Positions 8,318 to 56,160 of a stretch of 64,000 nt of DNA are shown one piece after another. The first letter of the stretch is position 1. Every line of letters begins with the position of its first letter. This stretch comes from Caulobacter hibisci (GTDB lineage: Bacteria; Pseudomonadota; Alphaproteobacteria; Caulobacterales; Caulobacteraceae). Location: the NCBI RefSeq assembly GCF_016135805.1, contig NZ_JADWOX010000007.1:124001-188000 (forward strand), in the 5' to 3' direction. The translations under genes and the position numbers were made by a program. The notes beneath the pieces were generated by a model, which saw only the letters and a program-made list of their open reading frames with translations, searched no databases and was not told where the DNA came from.

Positions 8318-9580
8318 ATGCGGATCTACGACGAAGATCGGGCCGTGCTGGGGAGCCTGGCCGCCGACGGACCTCGGATGATCGACCGGGCCGTGGCCTG
8401 GTGCGCCATCAACTCGGGCAGCCGCCACCTCGCGGGCCTGGAGCGGCAAAGGCAGGTTCTGGTCGAGGCCTTCTCCATGCTGCCCGCCGCGCCTGCCGAA
8501 ATCCCGCTGACCGCCTCGCCGGAGATCGCCGCCGATGGCCGCCAGGTCGAGCAGACCCATCCGCCGGCCATCGCCTTGGTCGTGCGGCCCGAGGCGAAGG
8601 TCCAGGTCGTGCTGACCGGCCACTACGACACCGTCTATCCGGAGACCTCGGCGTTCCAGACCGTCAGCACCCGCGCCGACGGCGCCCTGCACGGTCCGGG
8701 CATCGCTGACATGAAGGGCGGGATCTCGGTGATGCTGGCGGCCCTGGAGGCCTTCGAGCGCCACCCGAAGGCGTCCAATCTCGGCTATCGCGTGCTGCTA
8801 TCGCCGGACGAGGAGATCGGCTCCATTGCCTCCGCCCCCGTCCTGGCCGACTTCGCGCGGCTGGGCCATGTGGGCCTGACCTATGAGCCGGCCCTGGCCG
8901 ACGGGGCGCTGGCCAGCGTCCGCAAGGGCTCGGGCAATTTTCACGTCGTGGTCCACGGCCGCGCCGCCCACGCCGGCCGCGACTTCGCCTCGGGCCGCAA
9001 CGCGGTGATGGAGGCCGCGCGCTTGGCCCAGGCCCTGCACGCCCTCAACGGCCGGCGCGAGGGCGTGACCCTCAACATCGCCAAGATCGACGGCGGTTCG
9101 CCGCTGAACATGGTGCCCGACATCGCCGTGCTGCGCTTCAACGTCCGCTTCCCCTCGGCCGCCGACGCCGCCTGGCTGGAGGGCGAGATCGCCGAGATCG
9201 TCGCCTCCACGAAAAGCGACGGCCTGCACGCCCACCTTCACGGGCGCATCACTCGCGGCGCCAAGCCGTTCAACGCCGCCCAGGAGAAGCTGTTCGGCGC
9301 GGTGAGGGACGTCGGCGCGCTGCTCGGCCAGGACATCGCCTGGAAGCCGTCCGGCGGCGTCTGCGAGGGCAACAACCTGTTCGCCTCGGGCCTGCCCAAT
9401 ATCGACAGCCTGGGCGTGCGCGGCGGCGACATCCACAGCGAGGCCGAGCACGCCTGGCCCGCCAGCTTCGTCGAGCGCGCCCAGCTCTCGGCCCTGACCC
9501 TGATCAATCTCGCCAGCGGTGACATCGACGCCCAGGCGATCCGCGCGGCCATGGCCGTCGCCGTACCGGAGACACTCTGA
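8318..9580 (+). CDS. M20 family zinc metallohydrolase, possible succinylglutamate desuccinylase substitute
   Basis: A 420-residue dinuclear-zinc hydrolase of the ArgE/DapE/carboxypeptidase G2 type. All expected metal and catalytic positions are visible: GHYDTV (His102, Asp104), GIADMKGG (Asp131), SPDEEIGS (Glu165/166), YEPAL (Glu190) and HSEAEHAW (His near 373). I chose the ATG at 8318 because AGGGAGA lies just upstream; an in-frame extension to 8270 lacks such a site. It abuts astA with no gap, and astE is missing from the operon. I infer, without proof, that it removes the succinyl group at the end of the AST pathway. Confidence 0.85.
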   Translation: MRIYDEDRAVLGSLAADGPRMIDRAVAWCAINSGSRHLAGLERQRQVLVEAFSMLPAAPAEIPLTASPEIAADGRQVEQTHPPAIALVVRPEAKVQVVLTGHYDTVYPETSAFQTVSTRADGALHGPGIADMKGGISVMLAALEAFERHPKASNLGYRVLLSPDEEIGSIASAPVLADFARLGHVGLTYEPALADGALASVRKGSGNFHVVVHGRAAHAGRDFASGRNAVMEAARLAQALHALNGRREGVTLNIAKIDGGSPLNMVPDIAVLRFNVRFPSAADAAWLEGEIAEIVASTKSDGLHAHLHGRITRGAKPFNAAQEKLFGAVRDVGALLGQDIAWKPSGGVCEGNNLFASGLPNIDSLGVRGGDIHSEAEHAWPASFVERAQLSALTLINLASGDIDAQAIRAAMAVAVPETL

Positions 9581-49117: not shown

Positions 49118-49989
49118 TGGCCCCCGCGCACAAGACGCCCGCCCCGCAATTGCAACAGCCGCCGACCGACGCGGCTGGAATGCCGATCCAGAGGGACTTC
49201 ACAAGCCGTGCGGGGAGAACGGGTGGGTATCCCGCGGCTCATGGATCGGAAGTTCGGCAGGCCGGGGGCGGGTTGCGCCCCGCTCCCGGCCGCACCTCAG
49301 GGAGAGGCGACGCTCTGCAGGTGGCGGCCCTCTATGTCGAGACCGGCGGCTGCTACTTCGGCCTGCCTGACGTAACCGTCGTTGGCCACGGAGAAGATCA
49401 CGCTGACGGTTCAACGACGGTGCATCTTGACGGGAGGGCCTATCGCGGGCCCTGGCCAGTCGTGGCCCATCCGAGCTGCAAGCGTTTTGGGCGCTTCTGG
49501 CATGGCAGCACGCGCAAGCCGCACCAGTTCAAGATGGGCGACGACGGCGGCTGTTTCGAGCACGCCCTGTCGACCGTCCGCGCCTATGGCGGCGTCATCG
49601 AGCACCCCTGTGACAGCCGGGCCTGGGGTCTGTTCCAACTCAACGCGCCGCCTCGTCAAGGCGGATGGGTAAAAGCTGACGATCTGGGCGGCTGGACCTG
49701 CTGCGTGGATCAGGGGTTCTACGGCCACTTCGCAAACAAGCTGACGTGGCTCTACGTTTTCGGGGTGAGCCGCGAAGACCTGCCCGATCTGCTGTGGGGC
49801 AAGGGTGAGCAGCGCCTGCATCCTGTCGCGCTGGAGAAATACGGCTACGAAAAAGCCCGGCGCATCGGGATGATGGCCATGGTGGGCGGCAAGGACAAAG
49901 TCCGTATTCGAAACCGGACCCCTGAGCGCTTCCGTGACCAGCTGCTCTCGATCGCGCGGTTGTCGCGCGCGCGGACGCTGACCCGATGA
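49117..49989 (+). CDS. conserved phage protein of unknown function
   Basis: 290 residues. From residue 67 onwards there is a conserved-looking core: AALYVETGGCYFGLPDVTVV, VVAHPSCKRFGRFWHG, GVIEHPCDSRAWGLF and GGWTCCVDQGFYGHFANK, ending TPERFRDQLLSIARLSR. I have the impression of a family met in other proteobacterial phages, with HP(S/P)C and EHPxxSxAW motifs that recall a nucleotide-modifying enzyme, but cannot name it. Overlaps the primase gene by four bases. Confidence 0.72.
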   Translation: MAPAHKTPAPQLQQPPTDAAGMPIQRDFTSRAGRTGGYPAAHGSEVRQAGGGLRPAPGRTSGRGDALQVAALYVETGGCYFGLPDVTVVGHGEDHADGSTTVHLDGRAYRGPWPVVAHPSCKRFGRFWHGSTRKPHQFKMGDDGGCFEHALSTVRAYGGVIEHPCDSRAWGLFQLNAPPRQGGWVKADDLGGWTCCVDQGFYGHFANKLTWLYVFGVSREDLPDLLWGKGEQRLHPVALEKYGYEKARRIGMMAMVGGKDKVRIRNRTPERFRDQLLSIARLSRARTLTR

Positions 49990-51083
49990 CCCCCCAGCGC
50001 CGCGAACTTCCCTACGCCTGGGCCGAGGTCAAGGCGCAGCTGCAGGCCAATATCAACCGCCTGCTGACCCGCCTGGGCTTTGGCCAGATGAAAGAGGACG
50101 ACGGCCGCGTGTGGCCCAGGAACCCCTGGCGCGACGATCGCCGGGCGGGCTCGTTCAACATCGCCGTGGCCCGGGTGAAGAACTTCGACATCGGGGCCTG
50201 GCACGACTTCGCCACCAAGGACGGCGGCGACATCTTCGACCTGATCGCCCGCTGCGAGCGCCACGCCGACAAGATGAGCACCTACTGGTGGGCGCTGGAA
50301 TGGCTGGGCTGGGGCAAGGGCGAGGTGCGCACCAAGGCCCAGGCCGACCAGGACCGCGAGCGCGAGGAGGCCAACCGCCGCGCGCGCGAGGCCAAGAGCG
50401 AGGAAGAGGCCAGCGCCAAGCGCCAGCAGCTGCTGGGCAAGTGGCTGGCCCTGCCGGGGATCGGCGGCACGGTGGCCGAAACCTATCTGCGCGAGGCGCG
50501 GGGCATCGACCTGTCGCGCCTGCCGAAACTGCCCGAGGCCCTGCATTTCTCGCCCGCCTGGGACCACTTCGACAAGGAAACCGGCGAGATCACCACCTGG
50601 CCGGCCATGGTCAGCGCCATGACGCGCGGCAGCAAACTGGCGGGCCTGCATATCACCTGGCTGGCGCCGGACGGTTCGGGCAAGGCGCCGGTGACCCCGG
50701 CCAAGAAAATGCGCGGCAGCGTCAGCGGATCGGCGATCCGCCTGACGCGCGGGGCCGGCGGCCTATCGCCGACCGAAGCGCAAAAGCGCGGCGCGGCCAT
50801 TCCGCTGGTGATCGGGGAGGGGATCGAAACCACCCTGACCTGCGGCGTGGCCCAGCCCGGCTATCGCGCCTGGGCGGCCGGGTCGCTGAGCCTGATGGGC
50901 CTGCTGGACTGGCCGCCCTTCGCCAGCGCCGCGATCCTGCTGCGCGACAACGACTGGAAGCCCGAGGCCGTCGCGGCCTTCGACAAGGTGGTGGACCACT
51001 GGCGCGCCCAGGCCGCCGGACGCCCCCTGAAGGTGGTGGGCGCCAAGGTGGGCAACGACTTCAACGATTGGGTGCGCGCGTGA
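49986..51083 (+). CDS. toprim domain-containing phage primase
   Basis: 365 residues. The N-terminal part holds a short zinc-less primase-type segment (KNFDIGAWHDFATKDGGDIF). The toprim domain has LVIGEGIETTL (catalytic Glu near 278), AILLRDNDW (DxD-like, near 316) and KVGNDFNDW. Makes RNA primers for phage replication. Overlaps the helicase start (GTGA) and acts with it as the replication pair. Confidence 0.87.
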   Translation: MTPQRRELPYAWAEVKAQLQANINRLLTRLGFGQMKEDDGRVWPRNPWRDDRRAGSFNIAVARVKNFDIGAWHDFATKDGGDIFDLIARCERHADKMSTYWWALEWLGWGKGEVRTKAQADQDREREEANRRAREAKSEEEASAKRQQLLGKWLALPGIGGTVAETYLREARGIDLSRLPKLPEALHFSPAWDHFDKETGEITTWPAMVSAMTRGSKLAGLHITWLAPDGSGKAPVTPAKKMRGSVSGSAIRLTRGAGGLSPTEAQKRGAAIPLVIGEGIETTLTCGVAQPGYRAWAAGSLSLMGLLDWPPFASAAILLRDNDWKPEAVAAFDKVVDHWRAQAAGRPLKVVGAKVGNDFNDWVRA

Positions 51084-53002
51084 ATAGGCCGGTCAACCCT
51101 TACGACGCCATCGCCCGCGAGCTGGAGCTAGACCCGGTCGAGTTCAGCGAACTGCGCCAGCAGGGCCTGGCCGATCCGCCGCGCGGCTGTCCCATGAAGG
51201 TCAAGGACAAGTGGGGCGAGGAGCACGACATTGAGCCTGGCGGTTGGCGCGAGGCCGGTTTCATCGGCGACGACGGCGCGCTGCCCTACAACTGCCCGAT
51301 CATCCCGCTGGGCCAGGATGAGCAGTTCATCTATGTGCTCTCGCCCCTGGGGCACGTGCGGATGCTGAAGGAAAACGTCGGCAAGACCGCCCTGATGATG
51401 GCGTTCGGCGGGCGGGTGTCGTGGCTGGAATGGGCCTATCCGCGCTGGAGCAAGGGCACGGAAACCTCACCGGCCGAGGTGACGGGCTTTGCGGCCGAGA
51501 ACCTGCTGATCGACCTGATCAACGCCTGCGCCTGGAAGGGCGGGTTCGCGATCGAAGACCATATCCGCGGGCGCGGCGCCTGGCGCGACGATGACGGCAG
51601 TCTGATCTATCACGCGGGCGACCGGGTGCTGATTCAGGGGCGCTGGCGCGCCTGCGGCGAGTATAACGGCCATATCTATGCGGCCCGGCCCAAGCTGGGG
51701 CGACCGGCGGCCAAGTACGAGGCCGAGGGCGAGGGCTCGCCCGGCGACAACCTGCTGGGCCTGCTGCGCACCTTCAACTGGGATCGCGGCGAGCTGGACG
51801 CGCGCCTGACCCTGGGCTGGCTGATGACGGCCAAGGTGGGCGGGGCGTTGCGCCGCCGGCCGGTGCAGTTCGTCAACGGCGAGGAGGGCAGCGGCAAGAG
51901 CACGCTGCAGGAATTGCTGCGCCTGGCCATGAATGGCGCCCTGATGAGCACCAGCAACACCACCCAGGCCGGGATCTATCAGAAGATCCGCCAGGACAGC
52001 GTGGCGATCCTGGTCGACGAAATGGAGAGCAAGGAAGACAACCGCGTCGTCGACAAGATCCTGGAGCTGGCGCGCATCGCCTATAGCGGCGACAAGATGC
52101 AGCGCGGCGGCCAGGACGGCCAGGGCAAGGAATTTGCCCTCATGTCGTCGTTCATGGGCAGCTCGATCGCCAAGCCGGCCACCAACGCCCAGGACGACAG
52201 CCGCATGGTGGTGTGCCTGCTGCGCCCGCTGATCCGCAAGCCGGGCGTCGAGGCCAAGGAAATCGACACGCGCACCATCGAGCAGTGGGCGGCCGACGTG
52301 GCCGCCGACAGCCCGATCAGCGCCGGCGACGTCGATCTGTGGGGCCGGCAGCTGCTGCGCCGCTGGTTCGAGTGGTGGCCGCGCTGGGGCGGCCTGCTGC
52401 GGGTGTTTCGCCAGGCGCTGCTGGCGGCGGGGCATGATGACCGCTCGGCCGACACCTTCAGCCCGCTGGCGGCGGCCTGCCACGTGGCCCTGCGCGACAC
52501 CCTGCCCGAACCCGCCGAGTTGAAGGAATGGATGGAATGGCTGCGCGCCGACCAGCTGGTGGAGACGGCGACCAAGGAAAAGACCTGGCGTCGCTGTTTC
52601 ATGCACCTGCTGGGCGCCACGCCGCGCTATCTCGAGCAGCAGGCCAGCAAGAGCGTCGGGGCGGCGCTGGAGGCCTTCAAGGCCGATCCGATGATGCAGC
52701 CCGACGAGGTGAACCGGCGCCTGGCCATGAGCGGCCTGGCGCTGAGCTGGCCCAAGGCTGGCGATGGCGGGTTCTCACCCCAGGCGTGGGACACCGCGCG
52801 GCTGTTCGTGCCGGCCAAGAGCGCCCAGCTGTTCGAGTTGTTCGCCGGCACGCCCTGGCAGGGCCACCTGGCCTCGCCCGGACCCTGGATCGGCGTGCTG
52901 CGCCAGATGGACAAGGGCCTCTGGGAGAACGGCAAGTGCGACAAGGGCCTGGACCGCAAGGCCAGCGGGATCTTCATCAACCTCGCCGACGCCCTGGCAT
53001 AG
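51080..53002 (+). CDS. phage primase-helicase/AAA ATPase
   Basis: 640 residues, GTG start overlapping the primase stop. FVNGEEGSGKSTLQELLRLA (Walker A near 268-275) and SVAILVDEMESKEDNRVVDK (Walker B near 307-314) mark a P-loop replication helicase of the phage/plasmid D5/SF3-like type. Probably unwinds the phage origin and recruits the toprim primase. Followed by a small gene and then the hexamer array. Confidence 0.86.
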   Translation: MNRPVNPYDAIARELELDPVEFSELRQQGLADPPRGCPMKVKDKWGEEHDIEPGGWREAGFIGDDGALPYNCPIIPLGQDEQFIYVLSPLGHVRMLKENVGKTALMMAFGGRVSWLEWAYPRWSKGTETSPAEVTGFAAENLLIDLINACAWKGGFAIEDHIRGRGAWRDDDGSLIYHAGDRVLIQGRWRACGEYNGHIYAARPKLGRPAAKYEAEGEGSPGDNLLGLLRTFNWDRGELDARLTLGWLMTAKVGGALRRRPVQFVNGEEGSGKSTLQELLRLAMNGALMSTSNTTQAGIYQKIRQDSVAILVDEMESKEDNRVVDKILELARIAYSGDKMQRGGQDGQGKEFALMSSFMGSSIAKPATNAQDDSRMVVCLLRPLIRKPGVEAKEIDTRTIEQWAADVAADSPISAGDVDLWGRQLLRRWFEWWPRWGGLLRVFRQALLAAGHDDRSADTFSPLAAACHVALRDTLPEPAELKEWMEWLRADQLVETATKEKTWRRCFMHLLGATPRYLEQQASKSVGAALEAFKADPMMQPDEVNRRLAMSGLALSWPKAGDGGFSPQAWDTARLFVPAKSAQLFELFAGTPWQGHLASPGPWIGVLRQMDKGLWENGKCDKGLDRKASGIFINLADALA

Positions 53003-53069
53003 GGCGTTCAAAGGGGCCTTCCCGCGCCCCATCGGCGCGCTAGGGTGCCGCTTTGGCAATGGAGGCGTC

Positions 53070-53309
53070 ATGCCGTATTTCAGCAAGTTCGACGGGCCGC
53101 ACGACGAGGTGGTGTGGGTCGATATCGAGAGCATCGTTTCGTTCTCAGCCTATGAGGCCCCGGCGGGCGACGACGAATGTTGCCACCTGCGCCTCGCTGG
53201 CGGCCATGCCTTTACGGTTAAAGCGACCGTCGAGGCGGTCGAGGAGGCTCTGATTGGCCGCCAGATCGAGGGGCTGCAGGACGGCCGCCGTCGCGCGCCT
53301 CGACGCTAA
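53070..53309 (+). CDS. hypothetical small phage protein
   Basis: 79 residues, VWVDIESIVSFSAYEAPAG and HAFTVKATVEAVEEAL suggesting a small beta-rich fold, with a basic C-terminal GRRRAPRR. ATG at 53070 has GGAGG upstream. No family recognised. Confidence 0.68.
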   Translation: MPYFSKFDGPHDEVVWVDIESIVSFSAYEAPAGDDECCHLRLAGGHAFTVKATVEAVEEALIGRQIEGLQDGRRRAPRR

Positions 53310-53565
53310 AGGGCGCGGCCGCCAGCGCGGGAGCGCTGGTGGCCGTGACTGACGGCGCAGGGGCCGCCAGGCCCCGGTGCGCGCCGTCTCCGCTTCTCTT
53401 GCCTACGCACCGGCGCAGCGCCCCGCAGGGGCGCGGTGCGCGCCGGTTCCGCCTCTTCCTACGATCGCCCCGACCCCGACCCGTTGGCCGCGATCAAACT
53501 ATGCCTAAGCCTCCCCCGACCCTCGCCGGGGTAGCGTGAAATTCGGATCGGGGCGATTTGAGCCC
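53310..53565. other. structured GC-rich intergenic segment
   Basis: No plausible gene. Contains hairpin CCAGCGC-GGGA-GCGCTGG (53322-53339) and a direct repeat of about 30 bases (53375-53407 and 53434-53463, both starting CGGTGCGCGCCG and ending CTACG). Together with the following array it forms about 490 gene-free bases. Confidence 0.65.
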
Positions 53566-53795
53566 GGTTCTAGACGGTTCTGGCGACGGTTCTACCGAAA
53601 CGCGAACCCGATCAACAGCTTGCAGCGATAGAACCCTTAGAACCGTCAGAACCCTGGCGGCGTGCTCCTATGCACTCATGCAGGCGCACACATGTAGAGG
53701 TATAGGGTTCTAACGGTTCTATAGGTTCTGTATCTAGTAAGTGCTTAAAAAAACGGAATTAATCGCAGAACCCAACGGCAGAACCCAACAGAACC
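53566..53795. repeat. twelve-hexamer array (GGTTCT/AGAACC), candidate origin or packaging site
   Basis: GGTTCT starts at 53566, 53576, 53588, 53706, 53715, 53724; AGAACC starts at 53630, 53639, 53648, 53767, 53780, 53790. The order is three forward, three reverse, three forward, three reverse, with exact 9-bp spacing in the two middle triplets. The middle triplets are near-perfect inverted copies (16 of 17 bases, 53639-53655 versus 53704-53720). AT-rich sequence lies at 53729-53765. The array ends eight bases before the TerS-candidate start. Confidence 0.85.
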
Positions 53796-53803
53796 CATAA
53801 ACA

Positions 53804-54382
53804 ATGGCCGATTTATTCGACCTAACCCCGACAGCGGGCGTTTTGCCGACAGCGGGAGCGGCGGTGGAAAACGCGCCGAGGCGCGGCCGGCCGAAGGGGG
53901 CGAAGAACAAGCGGGCGGGCGACCTGGGCGCGATCCTGACCGCTACGCATGAGGGTCGCACGCCGGGCCAGCAGCTCGCGGCGCTGTGCATGCCGACCGC
54001 CCAGGACCGGCGCGAGGCCAAGGCCCGCGCGCGGGCGCTGGGCTTCAAGGACGTCGATCTGCTGGCGGCCGTGGTCAAGGCCGAGAACCTGGCCAAGGCC
54101 CTGGGCTGGGTCGATGCGGGGACGGGCAAGCCGACCATGCAGGGGGTGCGCGACGCCTGGGCGATGATGTTCAAGGCCTATGGCGAGCTGCTGCCCTACG
54201 TGCACCAGCGCCTGGCGCCGAAAGAGGCCGAGAAGCCCCGCGACCAGGTCCCGCTGATCCTCATGGATCCCGAGCCGTCGGGCGGCGCGATGCTGCCGAG
54301 CGCGTTCGTGGAAAGCGAGGAAGATCAAGCACTTATCGAAGTGCTGCCGATCGAACTCACACGAACCAACTCACACGACTAG
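53804..54382 (+). CDS. putative terminase small subunit
   Basis: 192 residues. The N-terminus carries a basic AT-hook-like RRGRPKGAKNKRAG (near 26-39), the middle is helical (KAENLAKALGWVDAGTGKPT), and the C-terminus is acidic. Position directly upstream of the terminase large subunit and next to a repeat array fits TerS, which recognises the packaging site, but sequence motifs alone do not prove it. No Shine-Dalgarno before the ATG; the last AGAACC hexamer sits there instead. Confidence 0.55.
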   Translation: MADLFDLTPTAGVLPTAGAAVENAPRRGRPKGAKNKRAGDLGAILTATHEGRTPGQQLAALCMPTAQDRREAKARARALGFKDVDLLAAVVKAENLAKALGWVDAGTGKPTMQGVRDAWAMMFKAYGELLPYVHQRLAPKEAEKPRDQVPLILMDPEPSGGAMLPSAFVESEEDQALIEVLPIELTRTNSHD

Positions 54383-54657: not shown

Positions 54658-56160
54658 GTGTCGGAGAGCGTTCAGACCTTAGACCTGCGCAACTACGCCG
54701 GGCCGGTGGCCAAGGCGTATGAGCACAGCCGCGCGAAGATCGCGCTGCTGGGTGGTCCTACTGCTGGGGGAAAATCGCAGGGCTCTGCCCGGCGGTTTCT
54801 CCGCGTCACTCTCATGCAGCACCCTAGCCCAAGGGACGGCGTGCGCAAGTGCCGGATCACCTGCGTGGCGCCGACCTATCGGATCCTGTGGGACACGGCG
54901 ATCCCCAGCTATCTGAAGGTCTGGCCCAAGACCTGGGGCCAGTGGAGCGGCGCCAAGGGCGACCCGGCGGAACACGTCTTCAGCCTGAACTTCAACGGCG
55001 CGCCGGTGCAGCTGGAAATGAAGTTCCGGGCGCTGCAGGACAAGTCGGCCGAAGAGTTCATGCGCGGCCGCGAGACCACGGGCTGGTGGTTTCCGGAAAC
55101 CGACACCATGCCGGCCGAGGACCTGCTGAGCCTGGCCGCCAACCGGGTCGGCCGCTATCCCGAACCCGACGACCGCTGGGACCCGGAAGAGGCCCGGGCC
55201 AAGGGGTGGGCGCCGGCCTGGGCGGGCGTCTATGGCGACTTCAACGCGCCGATCGTCGGCAGCTGGTTCCACGACAAGTTCTATCTGCGCCGCGAGGATC
55301 GCGAGGGCCTGTTCATGCAGCCGCCCGGCCTGCTGGCCGACGGCACGCCCAACGCCGAAGCCGAAAACCTGCACAATCTGCGCAAGATCGACCCGGATTA
55401 TTATCGCGCGCTGGCGTCGAAAATGTCGGATTACGACATCGCCCGCCTGCTGATGTGCCGGCCGGGCTGGCCGCGGCTGGGCAAGCCGGTCTATGCCCAC
55501 TTCCGCGACGAGGTCCACGTGGCCACCGTCGACATCGAGCCCGATCCGTCGCTGCGCGTGGTGATCGGGGCGGATGCGGGCCAGACGCTGAACCCGGCCG
55601 CCACCTTCAGCCAGGTCAGCTACAGCAACCAGCGGCGGGTGATCGAGGAGATCACGCCGGTCAAGCGCCAGATGGACCTGACCGAGTTCGCCGCCGAGAT
55701 CCGGCGCACCATGGACACCCGGTTCCCGCGCTGCCGCGAGGCCGAAATCATCGTCGATCCCTCGGCCAAGGCCGGCAGCACGATGAACAGGGCGATCAGC
55801 TACGCCCAGCTGCTTCAGGCCCATACCGGGATCGCGGTGCGCCTGGCGCCCAGCAACAAGCCAGAGCAGCGGATTAGCGCGGTCAGCGACCGGCTGCGCC
55901 GCTCGGCGGGGCCGGGCGAGCCCGCCCTGCTGATCAGCCCGCGCTGCCGGGGCCTGATCGCCGCCTACAGCGGCGGATACCACTTCGCCAAGACCGGCAA
56001 CGCCTATCGCCCGCTGCCCGAGAAGAACGAGCACAGCCACGAGGCCGACGCCGACCAGTACGCCGAACTGGGGGTCAGCGGCCTGGGCGCGACGGCCGGC
56101 GGCTTTATCCCCCCCTCTGCGCGCGCCTCGCACAATGGCCCGGGTGTCATCCTCGACTAG
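54658..56160 (+). CDS. terL: terminase large subunit
   Basis: 500 residues. The N-terminal ATPase has Walker A LLGGPTAGGKSQ (32-40) and a Walker-B-like WWFPETDTM. The C-terminal nuclease has GADAGQTLNPAATFSQV, EAEIIVDPSAKAGS and HEADADQYAEL with acidic residues for metal. Powers DNA packaging and cuts concatemers. GTG start at 54658 has GGAAGG upstream. Confidence 0.9.
   Translation: MSESVQTLDLRNYAGPVAKAYEHSRAKIALLGGPTAGGKSQGSARRFLRVTLMQHPSPRDGVRKCRITCVAPTYRILWDTAIPSYLKVWPKTWGQWSGAKGDPAEHVFSLNFNGAPVQLEMKFRALQDKSAEEFMRGRETTGWWFPETDTMPAEDLLSLAANRVGRYPEPDDRWDPEEARAKGWAPAWAGVYGDFNAPIVGSWFHDKFYLRREDREGLFMQPPGLLADGTPNAEAENLHNLRKIDPDYYRALASKMSDYDIARLLMCRPGWPRLGKPVYAHFRDEVHVATVDIEPDPSLRVVIGADAGQTLNPAATFSQVSYSNQRRVIEEITPVKRQMDLTEFAAEIRRTMDTRFPRCREAEIIVDPSAKAGSTMNRAISYAQLLQAHTGIAVRLAPSNKPEQRISAVSDRLRRSAGPGEPALLISPRCRGLIAAYSGGYHFAKTGNAYRPLPEKNEHSHEADADQYAELGVSGLGATAGGFIPPSARASHNGPGVILD

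Follow-up and report, generated by a model that had tools for sequence, protein, structure and literature searches.

The locus analysed here raises the question of what a dense and symmetrical set of short repeats does between the helicase and terminase genes of a prophage. The array lies in a window of 64,000 nucleotides, the whole stretch of Caulobacter hibisci DNA analysed in this study, and consists of 12 exact hexamers, GGTTCT or its inverse AGAACC, at positions 53566-53795 (230 bp), ordered as three forward, three reverse, three forward and three reverse copies (F3-R3-F3-R3). The original prediction had given this number, order and length, and analysis of the window confirmed them with exact coordinates. 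A replication origin, a packaging (pac/cos) site and a late-gene control region had been named as candidate functions.

Analysis of the array revealed four triplets, here named A to D. The outer triplet A (53566-53593, plus strand) has GGTTCT starting at 53566, 53576 and 53588 (steps of 10 and 12 bp). The inner triplet B (53630-53653, minus strand) has AGAACC, which is GGTTCT on the minus strand, at 53630, 53639 and 53648 (steps of 9 and 9 bp). The inner triplet C (53706-53729, plus strand) has GGTTCT at 53706, 53715 and 53724 (steps of 9 and 9 bp), and the outer triplet D (53767-53795, minus strand) has AGAACC at 53767, 53780 and 53790 (steps of 13 and 10 bp). The regular 9-10 bp periodicity claimed earlier thus holds strictly for the inner triplets and not for the outer ones. 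Triplets B and C form a 24-bp inverted repeat (21/24 identical) around a dyad centre of 52 bp (53654-53705, 58% GC) whose length varies among relatives, in agreement with the predicted inverted repeat with a separation of about 50 bases. The symmetry goes beyond this central pair. A mirror partner of opposite orientation was found within 2 bp for all 12 sites (p 0.003 against shuffled intervals and orientations), and therefore A mirrors D as B mirrors C. The A-B arm gap (53594-53629) is 36 bp long with 56% GC, and the C-D arm gap (53730-53766), the AT-rich DNA noticed earlier beside the third triplet, is 37 bp long with 32% GC against 68% within 1.5 kb of the array. This C-D gap is the proposed melting segment. 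The end of triplet D is separated from the ATG of the next gene by 8 bp.

The hexamer occurs 32 times in the 64-kb window, 12 of these inside the array; the shuffle expectation is 16.75 +/- 3.52 and none of 100 shuffles reached 32. The triplet with 9-bp steps occurs exactly twice in the 5.57-Mb genome, both times in the array, and a search allowing two mismatches added one further place, with a backwards-pattern control giving 3+3 matches at up to two mismatches.

The genes around the array, all on the plus strand, belong to replication and packaging. A primase gene (49986-51083; 365 aa, DUF7146 and Toprim_3) is followed by the gene of the proposed initiator helicase (51080-53002; 640 aa, P-loop helicase-like), whose relatives carry arrays. 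Family matches of this helicase were Pfam DUF5906 (weak, E 8e-4, below its cut-off), PHROG 21086 (function unknown) and PHROG 35358 ('DNA primase'). The array begins 564 bp downstream of the helicase gene. A 79-aa ORF at 53070-53309, between helicase and array, is of doubtful reality, and searches with it gave no relative at E 1e-3 among the loci covered. The first gene after the array is terS-like (53804-54382; 192 aa); its product has no Pfam or PHROG match of its own, and it was named by position and by relatives, in which RGRPKG-type homologues precede terL. The terL gene itself lies at 54658-56160 (PHROG 2, E 2.6e-14). Among the 10 window proteins scanned, no family of the RepA/RepE or O type of non-helicase initiator was found.

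The original prediction had staked its case on the recurrence of the array in related prophages. The array was present there, mostly with another hexamer (hereafter, word). In the closest relative (L003/L018, one contig; TerL 71-72% identical) the array occupies the same place with TCCAACC/GGTTGGA. Other relatives use CTTCCA, GAAACC, CGAACC and CTAATAC/GTATTA, and the words of remoter relatives include GTAACA, CGTTCC, CGTCCC, CGTTAC, GGAACA, CTCACA, GGTAAC, CCTAAC and GGTTAC. A search for GGTTCT only would therefore miss most relatives, since their arrays mostly use another word.

Comparison of arrays with a clump of at least eight copies (48 arrays) revealed that same-orientation steps peak at 8-9 bp (151 steps) and 11-12 bp (57 steps). 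Mirror symmetry exceeded that of shuffles at p<0.05 in 20 of the 48 arrays (mean z 2.55); the remaining 28 fell short of this level, and L079, L094, L145 and L146 showed no mirror excess. Exact words alone were counted, by which some arrays lose mirror sites. All 12 sites are mirrored in the window, in L009, in Bdellovibrio phage phi1422 (L093) and in another alphaproteobacterial genome (L102), and mirroring is nearly full in L111 (12 of 13 sites) and in an Arsenophonus plasmid (L148; 12 of 14). Mean GC over the 39 arrays with three clear gaps was 0.40 for the C-D gap, 0.49 for A-B and 0.57 for B-C, the local value being 0.63, and the C-D gap was lower in GC than the A-B gap in 32 of these 39. 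The layout is a quasi-palindrome with an AT-rich gap in the arm distal to the helicase.

The survey of helicase relatives covered 80 loci with a helicase match, 70 of them distinct. At least nine copies of one hexamer within 330 bp were found at 43 of the 70, the fraction being taken over all loci. A rule that yields 64 evaluable loci counts short loci only if positive and so favours positives. Among loci with at least 1500 bp downstream, 39 of 60 hold such a clump. Markov resamples of 15 kb (n=100) gave a top clump of five copies in 54, six in 39, seven in six and eight in one, which was the maximum. Clumps of nine or more that are not arrays exist in real DNA (L009, L067 and phage Pmp11). 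The top clumps in L009 (CGTCGC, 19 copies) and L067 (AGCCAT, 13 copies) were other, upstream repeats and the arrays of these loci (AGAACC, 12 copies; GTATTA, eight copies) were used instead, so that 44 positives became 43. In L067 (genome G025) the stretch 441-900, upstream of the replication genes and outside the array, is dense in AGCCAT and CTCTGGC repeats (13 and 12 copies). Same-contig or near-identical loci (L112, L114-L117, L119-L121, L123, L125, L126, L133-L135 and L147) were left out of the survey, and the short loci L032-L053 were replaced by longer stretches. Two loci of genome G015 differ in what they hold: L033, which carries the helicase, stops about 250 bp after the helicase match and was left aside; the contig of L066, which carries the array, has no helicase.

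A clump of nine or more was lacking at 27 of the 70 loci, some of which are short stretches and some of which have seven or eight copies. PHB04, Dolphis, Mwe-JY13, PY223 and Phaeobacter pGal_G40 have a helicase relative and showed no clump in the stretch read. Records were read for 15 of the 23 phages and three of the 14 plasmids with the helicase; of the three plasmids, L148 has an array, L149 a clump of seven after the helicase and L150 none.

Of 46 arrays, 43 lie between the helicase 3' end, which some overlap, and 3.4 kb downstream. The exceptions are ZRG1, with the array in a gap 4.6 kb downstream of the helicase, fHe-Yen8-01, and Acinetobacter phage Acjo_20, with the array upstream of the helicase gene. 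The gene on the other side of the array varies. In phi1422 the array is directly 3' of the helicase gene and the next gene is not terS. In the 11.6-kb Arsenophonus plasmid an array of 13 copies is directly 3' of the helicase gene, and the terS annotation is about 5-6 kb away. In L063 and in Synechococcus phage MinM1 a NusG-family gene, not terS, follows the array. These NusG-family genes (L063:7984-8541, in a Caulobacteraceae genome, and L088:9940-10566, in MinM1) occupy the terS position of other phages; a possible reading is an antiterminator as first late gene. The Arsenophonus nasoniae plasmid also carries, besides the annotated terminase small subunit gene, protelomerase-family and LuxI/LuxR-type genes, and a second clump (CTTGTA, seven copies) near 9031. 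Overall, the survey and the controls described below show that the array is associated with this helicase family, independently of terS.

Packaging was first suggested by the adjacency of array and terS, the array being a pac or cos site read by the TerS encoded 8 bp downstream. Array and terS adjoin in the window and in most TerS-bearing relatives, and multimeric TerS rings can use repeated sites. A site of this kind should travel with TerS and TerL whatever the replication genes. Controls were drawn from 20 phage records found with TerL; one of these (MT835534) also has the helicase, and 12 of the other 19 were read. 'Without helicase' here means absence from the tblastn list at E 1e-8. One control, L087, whose sequence starts 156 bp upstream of terL, was excluded. 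The evaluable controls were the other 11 (BcepC6B, Rollin, Hodr, Ss1, Y3, RHph_TM3_14A, MEP301, Pmp11, VA-RY-3, Mwe-JY08 and Mx8). No two-way array was found before terS in the stretch read of any of these 11. Clumps of nine copies occur elsewhere in two of them, and the comparison of 43/70 with 2/11 gave a one-sided p of 0.009 with relatedness ignored. In Pmp11, repeats in the same direction lie inside terS. Vibrio phage vB_ValP_VA-RY-3, which has no helicase match, has an intergenic two-way array of AGGATA (L097:3873-4120; nine copies, gaps 63, 54 and 54) located 1.3 kb before the first terminase-side gene; perhaps another initiator uses a similar origin plan there. TerL served as a search anchor that found relatives; with TerS alone, phages and viral contigs gave no match.

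Covariation of the word with the neighbouring proteins was analysed by partial Mantel tests on 18 loci, 17 of them with TerL, hand-chosen for helicase, TerS and a clear word, without the near-duplicates L011, L012, L014 and L017; their words were assigned by us from clump scans. With 17 taxa, the word correlated with helicase distance given TerS (0.66, 0/2000 permutations) and given TerL (0.71, 0/2000), and did not correlate with TerS given helicase (0.02, p 0.45) or with TerL given helicase (-0.03, p 0.63). Within the helicase, the value for the C-terminus given the core was 0.51 (0/2000) and for the core given the C-terminus 0.21 (p 0.06). When the L008 group was cut to one representative (12 taxa), helicase given TerS was 0.60 (0/2000) and TerS given helicase 0.12 (p 0.16). 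When the group was removed (11 taxa), TerL given helicase rose to 0.35 (p 0.005), which weakens the independence from TerL in this subset and is a point in favour of packaging. The match of word and helicase is not one-to-one, as the L031 helicase is 55% identical to that of the window, a closeness equal to that of the AGAACC loci, and its word is CGATTG. The apparent coevolution could also be hitch-hiking, since the array and the helicase gene are linked. Our computation shows that the word tracks divergence of the helicase, not of TerS or TerL.

The window itself has a mosaic structure. Its primase (75/62%), TerS (50/64%) and TerL (56/72%) are identical at the levels given to those of L004/L018, loci with the word GTTGGA. 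Its helicase is only 39/41% identical to the helicases of L004/L018 but 53-56% identical to those of eight loci that use AGAACC or GGAACC. The stretch 49986-54382 looks recombinant, as if a cassette of helicase and array had been exchanged, because for primase, TerS and TerL the nearest locus is L004 or L018, and helicase and word resemble the AGAACC/GGAACC loci. The pair of the window and L018, with TerS proteins 64% identical and different words, argues against a site read by TerS, as do the arrays that precede NusG-like genes, the ProQ gene of a plasmid or the helicase itself. After the helicase-anchored survey and the helicase-less controls the packaging site was dropped as a candidate, and we consider it very unlikely.

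The reader of the array is probably the neighbouring putative helicase, through its C-terminal 167 residues (52499-52999, plus strand), the domain whose divergence the word follows more closely than that of the core. An AF2 model of this domain reached a pLDDT of 90, and the model of the full-length helicase was poor (pLDDT 56). The best solved match to the C-terminal model was 5vfy, an accessory protein of the pCW3 relaxosome, with a weak Z of 4.5, and several DNA-binding domains followed lower. Foldseek with the same model gave best E values of 0.6 (PDB) and 0.17 (viral models); 'Virulence associated protein E' ranked 49th among the viral models (E 2.4). We assign the domain to no fold family, because these E values are high and the VIA Z scores do not exceed 4.5. 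Among the PDB structure matches listed, no entry was named as a SaPI Rep or D5-type helicase; a 'Rep-DNA complex' (5kbj) had Z 2.3. A profile search of PDB sequences gave one short P-loop match. For the D5, Primase_Cterm or DUF927 helicase families, all matches were below cut-off (DUF5906 at 8e-4 in the window, TIGR01613 in L018 and L004, DUF927 at 7e-4 in L101). The C-terminal winged helices of other mobile-element replication proteins are suggested as origin readers in the account given in PMC5862659.

Considering the candidates together, the comparative data favour the origin among the three functions first named, with the AAA-helicase as favoured binder, and speak against TerS and packaging. 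We propose that the array is the replication origin of the prophage and is read by the neighbouring helicase, a reading based on comparison of sequences to which we give a probability of about 0.85. Copies of the helicase would bind the 12 hexamers via the C-terminal DNA-binding domain. Each arm offers three sites in each orientation flanking a gap of about 37 bp, and the two mirrored six-site arms may seat two helicase assemblies facing each other. Melting would begin in the AT-rich gap of the helicase-distal arm (53730-53766). The helicases would next unwind the DNA in outward direction, working together with the primase of the phage and the polymerase of the host. The agreement of 12 sites with two hexamers is suggestive numerology, not a result. 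The sign of the GC skew counts against an origin: cumulative skew has a maximum near the array, where an origin should show a minimum. The skew is of low amplitude and confounded by gene direction.

A second role in late-gene control was kept as possible since the outer triplet ends so close to the terS start codon, and because the array abuts the next gene in most relatives. The next ORF, terS or other, starts within 45 bp past the array in 30 of 44 cases, about twice the background of 31% at randomly placed positions in ten loci (p 4e-7); the distance is 46-85 bp in 11 and more than 85 bp in three, ORF choice being imprecise in GC-rich DNA. Any promoter of the next gene would probably need to be inside the array, and therefore binding of the initiator could time late genes. 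These data can be read in two ways. The array could serve the terS-terL operon as operator or late promoter region, with a phage regulator as its binder, and be no origin at all; the adjacency to ORF starts and the AT-rich C-D gap just upstream of terS are in keeping with this. We regard it as improbable, as arrays also occur in phages with unrelated first genes, in a plasmid and far from such genes, and the word tracks the helicase; a promoter scan also found no sigma-70-like match, a weak test for Caulobacter. Alternatively, the origin could double as an operator, with helicase on outer triplet D holding back terS until replication fires. The 8-bp distance and the closeness of an ORF start, of whatever gene, in 30 of 44 arrays agree with this double role and the 14 arrays with longer distances do not, and we hold it possible but rather unlikely.

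A coding or chance repeat, or a structured RNA element, is hardly credible as explanation of the array. GGTTCT can read Gly-Ser, the strand as single-stranded DNA folds into a nested hairpin (z -4.5), and an exact scan found the 9-bp-stepped triplet in at least 120 viral-contig stretches, mostly as single triplets among the matches listed. Against this, the array lies between genes, any inverted layout gives hairpin potential, and the spacing stays similar under different words, as does the mirror plan in many arrays.

The origin proposed here is of a kind already known, the iteron origins of initiator helicases in SaPI/PICI, SCCmec (Cch2) and P4. Phage P4 has a primase-helicase initiator (alpha) with iterons (ori-crr). 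In iteron plasmids (RepA/RepE) and in lambda (O), tandem initiator sites likewise lie beside an AT-rich segment; unlike here, these initiators are not helicases and their sites are longer and usually in one orientation. The P4-family model TIGR01613 matches the helicase group weakly (L004 and L018, E 1e-4 and 6e-4, below cut-off) and does not match the window helicase. At TIGR01613 loci of Caulobacteraceae, seven of 14 over-cutoff places have a clump of at least seven copies, four of them exactly seven and within reach of chance. Locus L159 is also arranged F3-R3-F3-R3, with the last three copies overlapping, and the P4-family primase-helicase genes of L158, L159 and L154 lie near two-way arrays with outer gaps of 53-78 bp (53-69 bp in L158 and L159) and a centre of 34-36 bp, where the present family has mostly 38-64 and 50-100 bp. 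These loci are possible cousins of the mirror plan with different gaps.

In the PICI/SaPI rep-ori systems (EcCICFT073, SaPIbov1/SaPI5 Rep), as here, the initiator helicase is described beside a primase and the origin 3' of the initiator (PMC6092414, PMC7581432). According to PMC7581432, SaPI Rep reads iterons 3' of its own gene with the C-terminal domain and appears to bind as two hexamers. A plasmid with pri-rep-ori of an E. coli PICI is described as differing in maintenance from versions without pri or ori (PMC6092414). The putative origin of SCCmec Cch2, with AAGTG iterons, is described in similar terms: the helicase is of Primase_Cterm type, and the isolated C-terminal domain bound downstream direct repeats at this origin; the site has three iterons, and no mirrored arms are reported in the passages of PMC7581432 drawn on here. 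The window shares with PICI/SaPI the iterons 3' of the initiator-helicase gene, here at the distance of 564 bp. It differs in the arrangement of its four triplets as a mirrored pair of arms: the 37-bp gap between sets C and D has 32% GC, and this unit is doubled by the mirror arm A-B with its gap of 56% GC. It differs also in lying, like other members of the family, in a complete phage with terminase and portal genes. PICI satellites are defined by the lack of capsid, portal and terL genes, and the window has terL and a Head-tail_con portal gene. Three features seem new: the mirror plan is doubled, it is spread among complete phages, and the word changes with nearly fixed geometry. Among the open-access matches listed, no mirror-plan origin was found by title or abstract.

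Tentatively, these features may reflect a general origin design for self-loading helicases, with four triplets, mirrored arms, one hexamer per arm and a face-to-face pair, in which exchange or drift of the helicase C-terminus changes the word, the geometry stays nearly fixed and occupancy by the initiator times late expression. The array would give a likely origin to varied phages and prophages, none of which has one annotated in the feature tables read, tables that may omit origins. PMC6092414 describes an origin plan unique to PICI satellites; the present array would extend this plan to complete phages and hints that PICI and phage replicons share an ancestor. The 4 x 3 mirror geometry offers a way to study how two ring helicases load face to face without a separate loader, and the many natural pairs of word and helicase are a ready set for decoding DNA recognition.
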